Part shown: piece by piece, positions 11,985 to 31,502 of the stretch | How the letters are laid out: each line of letters opens with the position of its first letter | How positions within the stretch are numbered: the stretch's first letter is position 1 | Assembly (NCBI GenBank): GCA_022828105.1 | Contig: JAJEJC010000010.1 | Coordinates: 62,001-126,000 of the forward strand | Source: Dehalococcoidia bacterium | Lineage (GTDB): Bacteria; Chloroflexota; Dehalococcoidia; Bin125 | Direction of reading: 5' to 3' | Length of the DNA: 64,000 nt | The notes under the pieces: generated by a model | Told to the model about the DNA's origin: nothing | Database searches by the model: none | What the model saw: the letters and a program-made list of their open reading frames with translations, nothing else | Program-made: the position numbers and the translations under genes

Positions 11985-12406
11985 GAGCGGTCGAGCTCGG
12001 GCACCTGCGCGCGGACGAACTCGGCGATGTCGCCGGTGTGCGCGCCGGGACCGAAGATGGCCGAGAATCCCGCCGCCTTCAGCCGGTCCGCGTCTTCAAC
12101 GGGGATGATGCCCCCGCCCAGGAACAGCGTGTTGTCCGGCGTGATCCCACGCTGCCCGCAGGCCTCGACGACGCGCGGGAACAGCTCCAGGTGCGCGCCC
12201 GACAACACCGACAGCGCCACCACGTGCACGTCTTCCTGCAGCGCCGCCTCGGCGATCATGTCCGGCGTCTGGCGGATGCCCGTGTAGATCACTTCCATCC
12301 CGGCGTCGCGAAGCGCCCGAGCCACAATCTTCGCCCCCCGGTCATGCCCATCCAGCCCCGGCTTCGCCACCAGGACTCGGATCTGTTCAACAGCAGTTTC
12401 GGCCAT
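11981..12406 (-). CDS. Methylmalonyl-CoA mutase small (B12-binding) subunit
   Basis: 141 aa, a single cobalamin-binding domain with the DxHxxG cobalt-ligand motif (D19, H21, G24 in [12 protein letters not shown]) and the LSG and GGG motifs that surround the nucleotide tail. It is the detached C-terminal half of methylmalonyl-CoA mutase; the catalytic half is encoded at 16207-17877. Together they interconvert methylmalonyl-CoA and succinyl-CoA. It is the first gene of the operon with meaB. Confidence 0.93.
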
Positions 12407-12529
12407 AGCTTCACCTCAACGAGTGTGGATCAGGTTCAGCTTAGAAGGTCCGCCCGTCTGGTTCACCCAGTCATGGCAATAGACTTCGCGGGAACCGAAC
12501 ACGAACCCGTATCCCGTAGGGGTAAGCCG

Positions 12530-14788
12530 ATGGACCAGACCGTCTTCCAGCAAGTGACGTTTCCACTCAGTGTGTTACTCGGGCAAATCAAGACCGGCCA
12601 TATTGGCCTGCCCGACATCCAGCGTCCATTCGTCTGGAAGAATGTCAAGGTGCGCGACCTGCTCGACTCGATGTACCGAGGCTATCCGGTCGGCTACCTC
12701 CTGCTCTGGCAGACTGGTGTCGAACCGACAAATCGCACCATCGGCGGCAACCAGAAACAGGTCGCCCCGTCGCTCGTGATCGTCGATGGGCAGCAGCGCC
12801 TGACCTCGCTGTACGCAGTTTTCACCGGCGAGGAGGTGGTTCGCGGCGACTTCACGCGCGAACGGATTCGCATCGCGTTCAACCCGCTCAACGGCCGGTT
12901 CGATGTCGCCAGCGCCGCGACGGAAAACGACCGCTCGTTCGTTCCCGACATCACTCCCTTGCTGAGCGGTCAACGGAATCTGATTGCCACCTTCAATGAC
13001 TACATCACTCGTCTCGAAGACGCTCGCCCGGTGTCCGACGCAGAAAGAGGGGCGGCTGAGGAAGCGTTGGGAAGGTTGCAGGGACTGTCGACCTTCCCGC
13101 TCACGGCGCTGCAGCTCGCCAGCAATGTCCAGGAAGAACACGTGGCGGAGGTGTTCGTCAGGATCAACAGCACGGGCAAGCCGCTCAATCAAGCCGACTT
13201 CATCCTCACACTGATGTCCGTCTTCTGGGACGAAGGAAGAACCGCGCTAGAGGAGTTCGCGAGACTATCGAAGCAACCCAACGTCACCGAGCCATCGCCG
13301 TTCAATCCCTTCATCGAGCCAACACCGGATCGGCTGCTGCGCGTTGGGGTCGGGCTCGCGTTCCGTCGGGCTCGACTGGAGTACGTCTACTCGATCCTGC
13401 GCGGCAAGGATCCTGACACCGGGGAGTTCTCGGACAACCTCCGCGAGCAGCAGTTCAACCGCTTGCAGGCTGCGCAGGAAAAGGCACTCAATCTCACGCA
13501 TTGGCATGATTTCCTGCAGTGTTTGACCCAAGCCGGCTACAGGAACAGGAGGATGGTCAACTCCGAGACTGCCCTGTTCTTCGCGTACACGCTGTTCCTA
13601 ATCGGTCGCACGGAGCTGAAGGTCCAGCCGAAACCGCTTCGAACGGCCATTGCGCAGTGGTTCTTCATGTCCTCAATGACCGGGCGCTACACCGGCTCGC
13701 CAGAGTCGGCCATGGAGTCCGATCTGGCCATGATTCGGTCCGCTGAGACTGCCGAGAGCTTCCTGGGCACACTTCAGCAAGCCTGCGACATCGCCCTGAC
13801 CAGCGACTTCTGGACAGTTACGCTGCCCAACGAACTTGCCACCTCCACGGCGCGCAGTCCGTCGCTGACCGCCTACCACGCTGCCCAAGTGTTGCTCCAG
13901 GCCCCAGTTCTGTTCTCCGACACGAACATCGCTGACTGGCTCGATCCGTTTGTCAATCCAGCCAAGTCGATTGAGCGGCATCATCTGTTCCCAAAGGCAT
14001 ATCTTGGCGAGCTGGGGGTGACTGCCCGTACCGACACGAACCAGATTGCCAACTATGCCTACGTCGAGTGGACCGACAACATCAAAATTGGCGCCTCCGC
14101 ACCTATTGATTACGTCCCTCACTTTGAAGCGGCAATGAGAGCCGCATCAGTTGCCGAAACGGCGATTCACCACATGTATCGGCTGCACGCACTGCCGATC
14201 GGATGGCAGATGATGGAGTACAAGGAGTTCTTGGCGGCCAGACGGGAACTCATGGCGGCACTGATCAGAGAAGGATTTGAGCGGATTGGAGCGCTTGAGC
14301 CGTCGCTTGCTACCCCCCAGCCTGTCCTCGACATCCAAGCGCTCGTCGCAGGCGGTGAGGGTGACGATGTCGAGTTCAAGTCAACGCTGCGGACGAACCT
14401 TCACACAGGAAAGAGAGACTCCGCGATGGAACACGCTGTGGTCAAGACGATCGCAGGGTTCCTAAACCAGAAAGGGGGAACGCTCATCATCGGAGTTCAT
14501 GACGATGGGACTGCGGTCGGTGTGGAGGCAGACGAGTTCGGATCCGAGGACAAGATGAATCTGCACCTCACCAATCTTGTCAATTCGCAGCTTGGCGAAG
14601 CGGTGTGGGCCAACATCCACGCGAACTTCGAGGACTTTGGCTCGGCGCGGGTGATGGCCGTTCGATGCGAGCCTGTCAGTCAAGTGGTGTATGACAAGGC
14701 AAAGCGACTGTTCGTCAGGACCGGGCACGCCACACATGAATTGTCAGCTCAGGAAGCAGTCCTGTTCGTCCAGGAGCGATTCGAATGA
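12530..14788 (+). CDS. DUF262-HNH-AlbA_2 fusion, probable defence nuclease
   Basis: 752 aa from the ATG at 12530, chosen because AGGGG precedes it; an in-frame ATG at 12473 has no ribosome site. Residues about 1-300 are a DUF262 (GmrS/ParB-like) domain with DGQQR at 86-90, the nucleotide-using motif. Residues about 470-545 carry an HNH/DUF1524-like motif, ERHHLFPKAYL (H484, H485), followed by an asparagine-rich segment. Residues about 605-752 are a Schlafen AlbA_2 domain (EFKS at 615-618, GGTLIIGVHDDG). DUF262 plus HNH is the layout of type IV restriction enzymes (GmrSD, BrxU, SspE); the AlbA_2 tail is unusual. It is a single plus-strand gene set between two minus-strand methylmalonyl-CoA blocks, which suggests insertion. 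The biochemical target is unknown. Confidence 0.82.
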   Translation: MDQTVFQQVTFPLSVLLGQIKTGHIGLPDIQRPFVWKNVKVRDLLDSMYRGYPVGYLLLWQTGVEPTNRTIGGNQKQVAPSLVIVDGQQRLTSLYAVFTGEEVVRGDFTRERIRIAFNPLNGRFDVASAATENDRSFVPDITPLLSGQRNLIATFNDYITRLEDARPVSDAERGAAEEALGRLQGLSTFPLTALQLASNVQEEHVAEVFVRINSTGKPLNQADFILTLMSVFWDEGRTALEEFARLSKQPNVTEPSPFNPFIEPTPDRLLRVGVGLAFRRARLEYVYSILRGKDPDTGEFSDNLREQQFNRLQAAQEKALNLTHWHDFLQCLTQAGYRNRRMVNSETALFFAYTLFLIGRTELKVQPKPLRTAIAQWFFMSSMTGRYTGSPESAMESDLAMIRSAETAESFLGTLQQACDIALTSDFWTVTLPNELATSTARSPSLTAYHAAQVLLQAPVLFSDTNIADWLDPFVNPAKSIERHHLFPKAYLGELGVTARTDTNQIANYAYVEWTDNIKIGASAPIDYVPHFEAAMRAASVAETAIHHMYRLHALPIGWQMMEYKEFLAARRELMAALIREGFERIGALEPSLATPQPVLDIQALVAGGEGDDVEFKSTLRTNLHTGKRDSAMEHAVVKTIAGFLNQKGGTLIIGVHDDGTAVGVEADEFGSEDKMNLHLTNLVNSQLGEAVWANIHANFEDFGSARVMAVRCEPVSQVVYDKAKRLFVRTGHATHELSAQEAVLFVQERFE

Positions 14789-14816
14789 GCAGTAGTCGGG
14801 GTTCCGTCCTTCTGCC

Positions 14817-15632
14817 CTACGCCTCCGACAGGCGCAGGCGGGCACCGTAGGTGTGTTTGGGGGAGATGAAGGCGCCGGCGGTGGCGTCGGTGACGGTCCA
14901 GCCTTCGCCTCTCAGGTGGTCGACCGACGCGGCTGCGTCGCGGACGGTCAGTGCGAGCATGAACAGGCCCTCGCCCGACGTTTCCAGCTTGCGCGGCAAG
15001 GGTCCGCCGCTGCCCGGCAGCGGTCGCACCAGCTCGATCGCGGTCGGGCCGAGGTCGAGGAACTGACCCTCCAGGCCCAGGTGGTCGGCGCTGAACGGCT
15101 CGCGTCCGACCAGGCCGTAGCGTTCGGTCCAGGCGTTGGTCACCGGCGCTACTTCATTCACCGCGACCGTCATGTGATGCAGCGCGTGCGGGCCCGGCCC
15201 CGAGCTCGGTCCACGATGCTGCGGCGCGTCGTCGGGCGGCTGCGCGTACTCGATCAGGACCCCGTGATTCGAGCGTGGGTGAATGAAGCCGATCATCCCG
15301 GTCAGACCCTCGCGCGGCTCCTCGTCGATCATCTGCATACCGCTCGACTTGGCCTCGATCAGGTCGCCCGCGACATCGGTTGACTCGAAACAGATGTGGT
15401 GAAAGCCCTCGCCGCTGTTCTCCAGGTACCTTGCAATGCCGGTGTCGGGACGCGTTGGCTGCAGCAACTCGATCTCGCAGTTGTCGAGCGGGAAGATCAC
15501 GCCACGCACGCCCTGCGACTCCAGCTCGGTGTCGAGCGCCGTCTCCAGTCCGAACGTGTCGCGCCAGATCTCGGCCGTCTTGTCCGCGTCGTGCACGGCG
15601 ATGCCGATGTGGTGAATTCTCGTGAGTGCCAT
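14817..15632 (-). CDS. mce: Methylmalonyl-CoA epimerase with second VOC domain
   Basis: 271 aa with two vicinal-oxygen-chelate domains. Residues 1-132 match methylmalonyl-CoA epimerase (RIHHIGIAVHD, GFHHICFE, FIHPRSNHGVLIE), which interconverts the 2R and 2S isomers of methylmalonyl-CoA. Residues about 150-271 are a second VOC module (HHMTVAVNEV, then IELVRPLP). The standard epimerase is one domain of about 130-150 aa that dimerises; here two modules lie in one chain, and the second looks divergent. It is the last gene of the mcm large subunit block. Confidence 0.85.
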   Translation of the reverse strand: MALTRIHHIGIAVHDADKTAEIWRDTFGLETALDTELESQGVRGVIFPLDNCEIELLQPTRPDTGIARYLENSGEGFHHICFESTDVAGDLIEAKSSGMQMIDEEPREGLTGMIGFIHPRSNHGVLIEYAQPPDDAPQHRGPSSGPGPHALHHMTVAVNEVAPVTNAWTERYGLVGREPFSADHLGLEGQFLDLGPTAIELVRPLPGSGGPLPRKLETSGEGLFMLALTVRDAAASVDHLRGEGWTVTDATAGAFISPKHTYGARLRLSEA

Positions 15633-17997: not shown

Positions 17998-18052
17998 TTG
18001 ACGACTAGCATGCTGAATGGATACTGTGAGCCACAGGAACTGTGCAACTGTG
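17998..18052 (+). promoter_or_regulatory. vapBC promoter with 8-bp periodic operator
   Basis: TTGACG (17998-18003) and TACTGT (18022-18027) form a -35/-10 pair 18 bases apart. Starting inside the -10 box, the pentamer CTGTG or its complement CACAG occurs at 18024, 18032, 18040 and 18048, exactly every 8 bases: CTGTG, CACAG, CTGTG, CTGTG. An 8-base period is typical of ribbon-helix-helix repressors, and the downstream antitoxin has such an N-terminus. Autorepression is therefore likely. Confidence 0.7.
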
Positions 18053-18067
18053 CCAGGAGAGTCGGCC

Positions 18068-18343
18068 ATGAGGAACATCACCGTTTCCGTCGATGACGAG
18101 ACCTACCGTCAGGCGCGCATCTGCGCGGCCGAACTGGACACATCCGTCTCAGCGCTCGTGCGCGAGTATCTGCGAAGCCTCTCCGACTCTGGTCCCAAGC
18201 TCCAGGAACTGGAGACCGCATCCGAGCGTCGCATGCGCGGGCTACTCGAAGTAAGGGAGCAGATTCGCCGCAACAGTCCGAACTTCCGCGTGGCCGACAA
18301 TGTCTCGCGGGACGAACTGTACGAGCGCCATGCGTCTGACTGA
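18068..18343 (+). CDS. vapB: VapB-type ribbon-helix-helix antitoxin
   Basis: 91 aa. The N-terminus (RNITVSVDDETYRQAR, then helices to about residue 40) is a ribbon-helix-helix DNA-binding fold; the charged C-terminal half would bind and block the toxin. The ATG is preceded by AGGAG at a good distance, so the frame's upstream extension is not used. It overlaps the toxin gene by 14 bases, as usual for co-translated antitoxin-toxin pairs. It is expected to repress its own promoter. Confidence 0.88.
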   Translation: MRNITVSVDDETYRQARICAAELDTSVSALVREYLRSLSDSGPKLQELETASERRMRGLLEVREQIRRNSPNFRVADNVSRDELYERHASD

Positions 18344-18749
18344 CACAAACGTACTCCTGTACGCCGCCAGTCTGCACCCGAGCGAGCAAGACAAGACCCG
18401 GATCGCCCTGGAACTGCTCGAACAAGATGACCTCTGCCTTTCCGTTCAGGTCTTGCAGGAGTTCTACTACCAGGCCACTCGACCGACCCGTCATGGTCGT
18501 CTCACCCACCAGGACGCGGTGGACTTCCTGGACAAGCTGAACGCGATTCCCGTACAGCCCCTCGATCAAGCGCTGATTGCGTCTGCCCTGCACATTTGCC
18601 AGCGCTACCAACTCTCGTACTGGGACGCGGCAATCCTCGCCGCCGCACTGGCCATGGGCTGCGACGAGGTCTACTCCGAAGACCTGAGCGACCGGCAGGA
18701 CTACGCCGGTCTGCGCGTGATTGATCCGTTCAGCGCGATTAGCAGTTGA
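18330..18749 (+). CDS. vapC: VapC-type PIN-domain ribonuclease toxin
   Basis: 139 aa, PIN domain. The four acidic active-site residues are all present: D5 (LTDTN), E44 (LQEF), D99 (YWDA) and D118 (SEDL). VapC toxins are Mg-dependent RNases that cut tRNA or rRNA when the antitoxin is degraded. The end of the gene overlaps the convergent MBL-fold gene by 11 bases. The active site looks intact, so the module should be functional. Confidence 0.92.
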   Translation: MRLTDTNVLLYAASLHPSEQDKTRIALELLEQDDLCLSVQVLQEFYYQATRPTRHGRLTHQDAVDFLDKLNAIPVQPLDQALIASALHICQRYQLSYWDAAILAAALAMGCDEVYSEDLSDRQDYAGLRVIDPFSAISS

Positions 18750-30260: not shown

Positions 30261-30336
30261 GGGGCCGTAGCTCAGCCGGGAGAGCGCCGCCCTTGCACGG
30301 CGGAGGTCAGGGGTTCGAATCCCCTCGGCTCCACCA
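30261..30336 (+). tRNA. tRNA-Ala (TGC)
   Basis: Cloverleaf with acceptor GGGGCCG/CGGCTCC (one G-T pair), anticodon loop CTTGCAC (anticodon TGC), T loop TTCGAAT and encoded CCA; 76 bases. TACGCT at 30246-30251 is a likely -10 box. It stands alone and not in an rRNA spacer. Confidence 0.97.
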
Positions 30337-30511: not shown

Positions 30512-30548
30512 CTCGGCGAGCCGGTTGAGATGGGCTGAGGGACGTCAC

Positions 30549-31502
30549 ATGGTTCAGCGGAGCGGGCTTGCGGAGTTGTTGCCGGGGCATCTTCTTGAGT
30601 TGGAGGACCCTCGGCGGGACCTGCCGCGGATTGCCAAAGACGAACTGACGACGACCTGGATCTCCTCGACGATTGCGTCGTTGCCGACGGAGCACAAGCT
30701 GATTGAGGGAAACGCGACGGAGCCGGACGGGTGGCGCGACCAGGTTGGGGACGTGGATCTCGTTGTAACGTCGCCGCCGTACTGGAGTTTGAAGGAGTAC
30801 CCGCGCCGCGACGGGCAGCTTGGCTGGACTGAGGACTACGAAGAATTCCTGGCCGGACTGCGTCCGGCGTGGGAAGCGTGCTACGAGGCCCTGGTCCCGG
30901 GCGGACGGCTAATCGTCGTGGTCGGGGATGTGTGTCTCTCTCGGCGGCAGAATGGCGGCAGGCACACGGTGGTGCCTCTGCATGCGTCGATCCAGGAGCA
31001 GTGCCGCGATATCGGCTTTGACAATCTCGCGCCGATCATCTGGTACAAGATCGCCAATGCGCGGATGGAGTCGGAGGGCAACGGGGCCGGGTTCCTGGGC
31101 AAGCCATACGAGCCAAACGCGGTGATCAAGAACGACATCGAATACATCCTGATGCAGCGTAAGCCGGGCGGCTACCGGTCCGTGGGGATCGAGCAGCGGG
31201 TGTTGAGCGTGATCCCGAAAGCGCAGCACAGCGAGTGGTTTCAGCAGGTCTGGCACGGCCCGCCCGGCGTGTCGTCGCCCGACCATCCTGCGCCGTACCC
31301 CGAGGAACTGGTCGAGCGGCTGATCCGGATGTTCAGCTTCGTTGGCGACCGCGTGCTCGACCCGTTCATGGGTACCGGAACGACGCTCGTGGCAGCGGCA
31401 CGGACAGGCCGCAACGGGATCGGTATCGACATAGAACCGGCGTACGTCGAACACTCAAGGCAGCGGTTGAGCGGTGTGCCGACGGCGCGAATCCTGCCAT
31501 GA
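30549..31502 (+). CDS. Type II DNA methyltransferase (beta class, probably N4-cytosine)
   Basis: 317 aa from the ATG at 30549, preceded by GAGGG; a TTG 24 bases earlier is possible. Motif IV (TSPPYW) comes in the N-terminal third and motif I (DPFMGTGTT) near the C-terminus, the order of beta-class amino-methyltransferases. SPPY is most common in N4-cytosine enzymes, though N6-adenine cannot be excluded. The ATGA overlap with the next gene and its content make this the modification half of a type II system. Recognition sequence unknown. Confidence 0.9.
   Translation: MVQRSGLAELLPGHLLELEDPRRDLPRIAKDELTTTWISSTIASLPTEHKLIEGNATEPDGWRDQVGDVDLVVTSPPYWSLKEYPRRDGQLGWTEDYEEFLAGLRPAWEACYEALVPGGRLIVVVGDVCLSRRQNGGRHTVVPLHASIQEQCRDIGFDNLAPIIWYKIANARMESEGNGAGFLGKPYEPNAVIKNDIEYILMQRKPGGYRSVGIEQRVLSVIPKAQHSEWFQQVWHGPPGVSSPDHPAPYPEELVERLIRMFSFVGDRVLDPFMGTGTTLVAAARTGRNGIGIDIEPAYVEHSRQRLSGVPTARILP

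Follow-up and report, generated by a model that had tools for sequence, protein, structure and literature searches.

The window, the whole 64,000-nucleotide stretch of Dehalococcoidia DNA that was analysed, contains an open frame on the forward strand whose 752-residue product combines a DUF262 domain, an HNH nuclease segment and an AlbA_2 domain. A longer, GTG-started frame beginning at 12038 is also present, but the alignments with homologues begin at the ATG at 12530. The features of the locus are as follows (window coordinates):

12455..14806, no strand: insertion of about 2.35 kb relative to the empty mcmB-epimerase spacer, containing the fusion gene only; ends approximate
12530..14788, + strand: DUF262-HNH-AlbA_2 fusion gene, 752 aa (open frame, Pfam, homologues, AlphaFold2 model)
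12572..13207, + strand: DUF262/GmrSD_N, ParB/Srx-fold NTPase sensor, residues 15-226 (Pfam PF03235, E 7.5e-29)
13976..13996, + strand: HNH motif RHHLFPK, residues 483-489 (alignment A2, BrxU fold match, BrxU motif from PMC8565348)
14330..14785, + strand: C-terminal SLFN_AlbA_2 tail, residues 601-752, with E610, E615, K617 and D658 (Pfam PF04326, SLFN14/SLFN11 alignment, model of the tail alone)

The fusion gene, present in a single copy in its genome, sits between mcmB/meaB and the methylmalonyl-CoA epimerase gene, and its neighbours in the window (meaB, mcmB, epimerase, mcmA) are metabolic. Alignment to the empty site showed that the insert begins just after GATCAG at ~12455 and ends at ~14806. 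The fusion gene is the sole gene in it, as the original prediction of a one-gene system had supposed. Comparison with the empty site did not establish a target-site duplication, and a sigma-70 promoter scan upstream of the gene gave no match. The GC content of the gene is 0.59 versus 0.67-0.68 in the flanks. Within the genus, the gene was found in three of the 15 genomes, each time at the mcmB-epimerase site (in one carrier, G312, the contig begins inside mcmB); in ten the spacer is intact and empty, measuring 33-72 bp, and in one further genome the contig stops short of mcmB. The same spacer holds an unrelated 1.9-kb insert in G411 (L131, 4470-6347), with a 556-codon open frame encoding a signal-like N-terminus; the spacer is possibly an insertion hotspot. 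No BREX genes were found at the locus and no ssp/dnd phosphorothioation genes among the window neighbours. No known defence gene lies within 15 kb of the fusion gene, with a lone DNA methyltransferase at ~30.5 kb of the window as the one exception.

The copy of the fusion gene in G408 is 89% identical, whereas the adjoining epimerase gene is just 72% identical, and this difference is a sign of lateral exchange. Comparison of the two fusion genes gave a dN/dS of 0.14 overall and 0.10 in the tail. The epimerase gene (14817-15632, - strand) occurs in two types within the genus (~72% vs 85-93% identity), and meaB/mcmA of G407, a genome with the second epimerase type, are 97% identical to those of the window. 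Set against each other, the epimerase types and the meaB/mcmA identity are a sign of recombination around the insertion.

The DUF262 domain (GmrSD_N is its current Pfam name) contains the three motifs defined for such domains in PMC11411939, QR (Q31, R32), DGQQR (D86 to R90) and FxxxN (F209VRIN213), and all three are invariant in alignment A1. The Pfam model of the nuclease half, GmrSD_C, had no match in the HNH segment. The HNH (DUF1524) nuclease domain was recognized from its motif and from the BrxU fold match: ERHHLFPK (482-489, with HHLFP at 484-488) is visible in the alignment of relatives (A2), where the N517 region is also present, and H485 corresponds to the catalytic histidine of the BrxU DHIYP motif (PMC8565348). 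SLFN_AlbA_2 was found at residues 610-738 (E 8.7e-16; 59 bits against a curated cut-off of 25.3). A search of NCBIfam with the fusion protein gave no match.

The AlphaFold2 model of the full protein has a mean pLDDT of 86.3. Its best fold match is BrxU over residues 6-584 (Foldseek E 2.5e-12; Z 15.4), followed by DndI (Z 10.3) and SspE (Z ~10), and residues 597-752 fit the nuclease lobes of SAMD9 and the Schlafens. Modelled alone, the tail reached a pLDDT of 96 and matched DIP2311 (Z 13.9), SAMD9 (12.7), the SAMD9 tRNase structure (12.1) and SLFN5/11/13/14 (8.5-9.8), with unrelated folds at 5.1 or below. Since it has only one AlbA_2 lobe, whereas the Schlafen core has two, the tail is a Schlafen-type domain, not a Schlafen. 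There is no doubt that the three parts are real and far above chance, because fold matches and conservation across about ten phyla both attest them. The chain had been predicted from the letters of the window; Pfam, the HNH motif and structure prediction confirmed it, AlbA_2 and DUF262 in Pfam's own models and DUF1524 by motif and fold.

When a profile of the tails was aligned with SLFN14 and SLFN11, E610, E615, K617 and D658 fell on E206, E211, K213 and D249 of SLFN14. In SLFN11 the residues matching the first three (E209, E214, K216) are essential and D252 is dispensable, D252A being active (PMC9482658); the antiviral and translation effects of SAMD9L depend on the same site (PMC11221667). 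An assignment by which the third Schlafen carboxylate (the D in FANTDGG) was missing proved wrong: the SLFN14 alignment places the carboxylate on the GVxD aspartate, which is present. The E-E-K-D residues are kept in all 23 fused relatives of alignment A3. Among 88 distinct tails the site reads EEKD in 84, EEKP in three and EERD in one, so that E-E is found in 88/88 and E-E-K in 87/88. A proline replaces the GVxD aspartate in an ACT-domain protein (L246), an HTH/sigma-4-like protein (L223) and one HsdR (L296). The motif supports catalysis by the tail, which would make it a putative nuclease, but is no proof of it, because E-E-K-D is common in AlbA_2 domains generally: it is complete in 12 of 18 other Chloroflexota AlbA_2 domains whose motif was aligned.

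Full-length fused homologues outside the genus share 41-56% identity with the window protein and come from about ten phyla (Chloroflexota, Planctomycetota, Acidobacteriota, Myxococcota, Pseudomonadota, Bacteroidota, Lentisphaerota, Rhodothermota, Actinomycetota and one candidate phylum), as well as from two viral contigs; the fusion is not unique to this genome. The lone insertion and the horizontal spread fit a horizontally moved one-gene restriction enzyme. Close relatives without the tail are equally common, a few of these being cut by contig ends or frameshifts. In a tree of 88 cores, AlbA_2, RAMA, HEPN or no tail occur on one chassis with at least ten state changes. The starred branches alone force four changes for AlbA_2; therefore, the C-terminal slot is repeatedly refilled or emptied. 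A second, distant DUF262 clade (L020-L025, L027, L030) carries AlbA_2 too. Besides the AlbA_2 proteins there were 37 tail-less relatives, 12 with RAMA and four with HEPN.

The RAMA tails, confirmed by Pfam as the predicted modified-DNA reader, replace the C-terminal AlbA_2 in Actinomycetota relatives (L066, L073-L075, L077, L078, L081, L083, L084, L086, L087, L089). Four distant Chloroflexota DUF262-HNH relatives (L017, L019, L026, L029) end in a Swt1-like HEPN domain; these matches are weak (E 0.003-0.0007) and the sequences show the RNAxAHH signature. AlbA_2 as a separate adjoining gene of tail-less relatives was seen only at L070 among the fetched loci and is not general.

Every tail-less (37/37), RAMA (12/12) and HEPN (4/4) relative retains both HNH histidines. 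The pair was lost twice, both times in AlbA_2-fused proteins. One loss is in a Streptomyces/Micromonospora clade (L044, L052, L053, L080 and four more genomes, L140-L143), in which the site reads ERDRLFHR, DRDNLFHR or PRDRLFNS; in the other (L003) the second, catalytic histidine is replaced by arginine. The HNH-lost Streptomyces proteins are full length, and with a dN/dS of 0.11-0.19 overall and 0.16-0.24 in the tail this clade, the sole HNH-lost lineage tested, is under purifying selection. Loss of the HNH site with the tail kept, in two events only, favours the tail as an effector.

In a tree of AlbA_2 domains the tails of both DUF262 clades grouped together against 28 others, with a support of 85, which is not decisive. 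Two outsiders were nearest to the DUF262 tails, and following these led to other carriers. C-terminal AlbA_2 domains of the same subfamily were found on a type I HsdR (L219), a type IIG enzyme (L221), a type III Res (L222) and two Druantia-like helicases (L220, L224). Among 400 Chloroflexota genomes a census found 22 strong matches of full length. Of these, 15 were on DUF262 proteins; the other seven were one each of type I, IIG, III and DruE-like enzymes, an MZB fragment, an ACT-domain protein and an unclear protein. The tail occurs in 30 of 326 Actinomycetota genomes. The 23 carriers read there in full or large part comprise 13 HsdR, four BrxL, four DUF262, one DUF4011-helicase-MTES_1575 and one Ser/Thr kinase; nine of the HsdR were assigned by 52-81% identity to Pfam-tested relatives, and sequence motifs identified three of the DUF262 proteins and one BrxL. 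In all 23 the tail ends at most 18 residues from the C-terminus. The HsdR carriers retain the D-x-ELK motif of their PD-(D/E)XK nuclease. In the Actinomycetota BREX BrxL proteins (L292, L295, L297, L311) AlbA_2 follows the AAA+ domain; described BrxL proteins have an inactive LonP, an HKD DNase or nothing after the ATPase (PMC12839542).

Some carriers were unexpected: the Ser/Thr kinase (L312), the ACT-domain protein (L246) and the HTH/sigma-4-like protein (L223). Small plasmid proteins of Actinomyces, Pontibacter and Methylomonas (L254, L256, L257) have two predicted membrane segments followed by AlbA_2. A tail specific to DUF262 proteins was ruled out by the HsdR, IIG, Res, DruE-like and BrxL carriers, and a tail specific to restriction enzymes is too strong a statement, given the two-TM plasmid proteins, the kinase and the ACT fusion. 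Because it is also found on the plasmid-borne two-TM proteins and on a plasmid-borne methylase, we describe the AlbA_2 tail as a general, mostly defence-linked portable module. The original prediction had missed this portability, as well as the RAMA and HEPN domains that the DUF262 core also takes.

Sixteen fused loci had enough flanking sequence for their neighbours to be assessed; likely defence genes were picked by eye and then tested, so that the choice was not blind. By plain count, at least seven of the 16 adjoin such genes. One lies beside PglX, PglZ and BrxL of BREX (L038) and one beside Druantia III DruE and type I R-M (L040). Three adjoin DrmD/DrmMI-like (DISARM-like) genes (L037, L041, L088), the last with a type III Mod as well. 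Others adjoin type I R-M (L049), a cytosine methylase (L091) and Mokosh MkoA (1671 bits; L042). The defence-island setting that had been anticipated was thus found for several homologues and not for the window gene, whose own neighbours are metabolic.

Among known systems the fusion protein most resembles BrxU/GmrSD, with which it shares DUF262, a helical linker and an HNH core; its best PADLOC model, HEC-05, is equated with BrxU in PMC11411939. The match to BrxU in sequence covers 54 residues only (E 2.7e-7), and the 580-residue BrxU chain, unlike the fusion, ends after the HNH part. SspE and DndI, phosphorothioate-sensing DUF262 nucleases, have a similar DUF262-gated nuclease fold (Z ~10), but they lack the AlbA_2 tail, and their modification genes are absent beside the window gene. 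GmrSD variants with the extra domains DUF4268, DUF4357 or DNA_binding_1 (Machnicka 2015, PMC4619093) and DUF262-HNH-HEPN proteins, noted in 2013 (PMC3710099), are like the fusion in having an added C-terminal domain; the DUF4357 of the former overlaps the RAMA tail of the fusion's relatives. Neither paper lists AlbA_2, AAA_4 or Schlafen on DUF262 proteins. The tRNases SLFN11/12/13/14 and SAMD9/SAMD9L share the fold and E-E-K-D of the catalytic lobe; the window protein differs in carrying a single lobe, a putative RNase, on a DNA restriction enzyme. In bacterial Schlafens, as cited in PMC12839542 (Taboada et al. 2025, preprint), AlbA_2 is likewise a presumed phage-defence RNase. BREX-linked Schlafen RNases are described as genes of their own whose products have a histidine-kinase-like and wHTH part at the C-terminus, and not as restriction-enzyme tails. 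No description of an AlbA_2-DUF262 fusion or of the shared tail was found in the open literature searched, and the view that no such system had been described held in that literature. GmrSD with extra domains and DUF262-HNH-HEPN are known already.

On the best reading, the protein is a type IV restriction enzyme whose tail is a Schlafen-type RNase serving as second effector. DUF262 would sense foreign, probably modified, DNA and bind or hydrolyse NTP, which would free the HNH domain to cleave the foreign DNA. The AlbA_2 tail would be a metal-dependent RNase, most likely directed at tRNA, that becomes active in the same state; RNA cleavage would then stop translation if DNA restriction fails. 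DUF262-linked NTP gating of nucleases has precedents in BrxU, SspE and TgvAB (PMC10952713, PMC11411939), and by analogy with such relatives we infer NTP-gated DNA cleavage by the fusion protein. RNase activity of the tail and its coupling to sensing are inferred more weakly, the RNase step from fold and residues. That the protein has a defence role is highly probable. Judging from its residues and modelled fold, we lean slightly towards the tail being an RNase. The proposal as a whole, a horizontally moved one-gene BrxU/GmrSD enzyme with a DUF262-gated HNH and a coupled RNase tail, stands at about an even chance. Counting against it are the single AlbA_2 lobe, whereas Schlafens have two lobes and dimerise, the presence of the tail on proteins other than nucleases and the metabolic surroundings of the gene itself.

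The original prediction left open whether AlbA_2 is a sensor or a second nuclease; the nuclease fits better, because E-E-K-D is kept and two AlbA_2 lineages lost HNH. The main rival, to which we give a sizeable minority chance, holds that the tail does no catalysis itself but binds nucleic acid or self-associates, and so aids the finding, holding or discrimination of DNA, with HNH as the sole cutter. The solved structure of the SAMD9 AlbA_2 domain contains bound DNA, and SLFN5 binds but does not cut; RAMA in the same slot of 12 Actinomycetota relatives fits a binding role and makes this rival plausible; the primary nuclease is retained in the majority of carriers (HNH in most DUF262 proteins, PD-(D/E)XK in HsdR), and 37 relatives have no tail at all. 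However, E-E-K in all tails but one is expected of catalysis rather than binding, a targeting aid does not explain the two lineages that lost HNH and kept the tail motif (one of them under purifying selection), and on BrxL the tail occupies the place of the inactive LonP or HKD DNase of other BrxL proteins. A regulatory brake, in which the tail as autoinhibitor or self-RNA sensor keeps the enzyme off until the bound RNA or DNA is displaced in infection, is improbable: a generic switch would suit carriers as unrelated in mechanism as HsdR, Res, IIG, BrxL, DruE-like enzymes and the kinase, but leaves the strict E-E-K conservation and the HNH losses unexplained. A housekeeping or stress RNase or regulator that happens to have these domains is very improbable, since the metabolic neighbours and the 15 kb free of known defence genes are outweighed by the gene's patchy distribution within the genus, its lower GC and its position in a lone insertion, by relatives that adjoin BREX, Druantia, Mokosh and R-M genes, and by the HEC-05 match.

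Extended to the other carriers, the RNase reading becomes more tentative. It is possible, though we think it somewhat doubtful, that a portable RNase tail makes dual DNA/RNA effectors of nearly every DNA restriction class (HsdR, IIG, III, IV/BrxU, BrxL, Druantia-like), with a shared sensor, fail-safe tRNA or mRNA cleavage and growth arrest, and with the tail as sole effector in some HNH-lost Streptomyces/Micromonospora proteins. Restriction enzymes are seen as enzymes that cut DNA. If the proposal is true, types I, IIG, III and IV and BrxL would have an RNA-directed back-up built in, so that a single chain combines restriction with abortive infection. Bacteria would then offer a counterpart to the human antiviral Schlafen and SAMD9 tRNases, and the Streptomyces proteins whose HNH is naturally dead lend themselves to testing this.

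Elsewhere in the window, PADLOC matches to UvrA, FtsH and ClpC are housekeeping genes, not defence. Two overlapping small genes beside the mcm cluster (18017-18749, + strand), read by eye only, resemble an antitoxin (108 aa, ribbon-helix-helix-like) and a PIN-type toxin (149 aa); PADLOC gave no match for the second. The lone DNA methyltransferase (30525-31499, + strand) has an SPPY motif, no obvious restriction partner and a match to PADLOC MTase_II (E 1.8e-51), and a tRNA-Ala gene (30261-30336) lies close to it.
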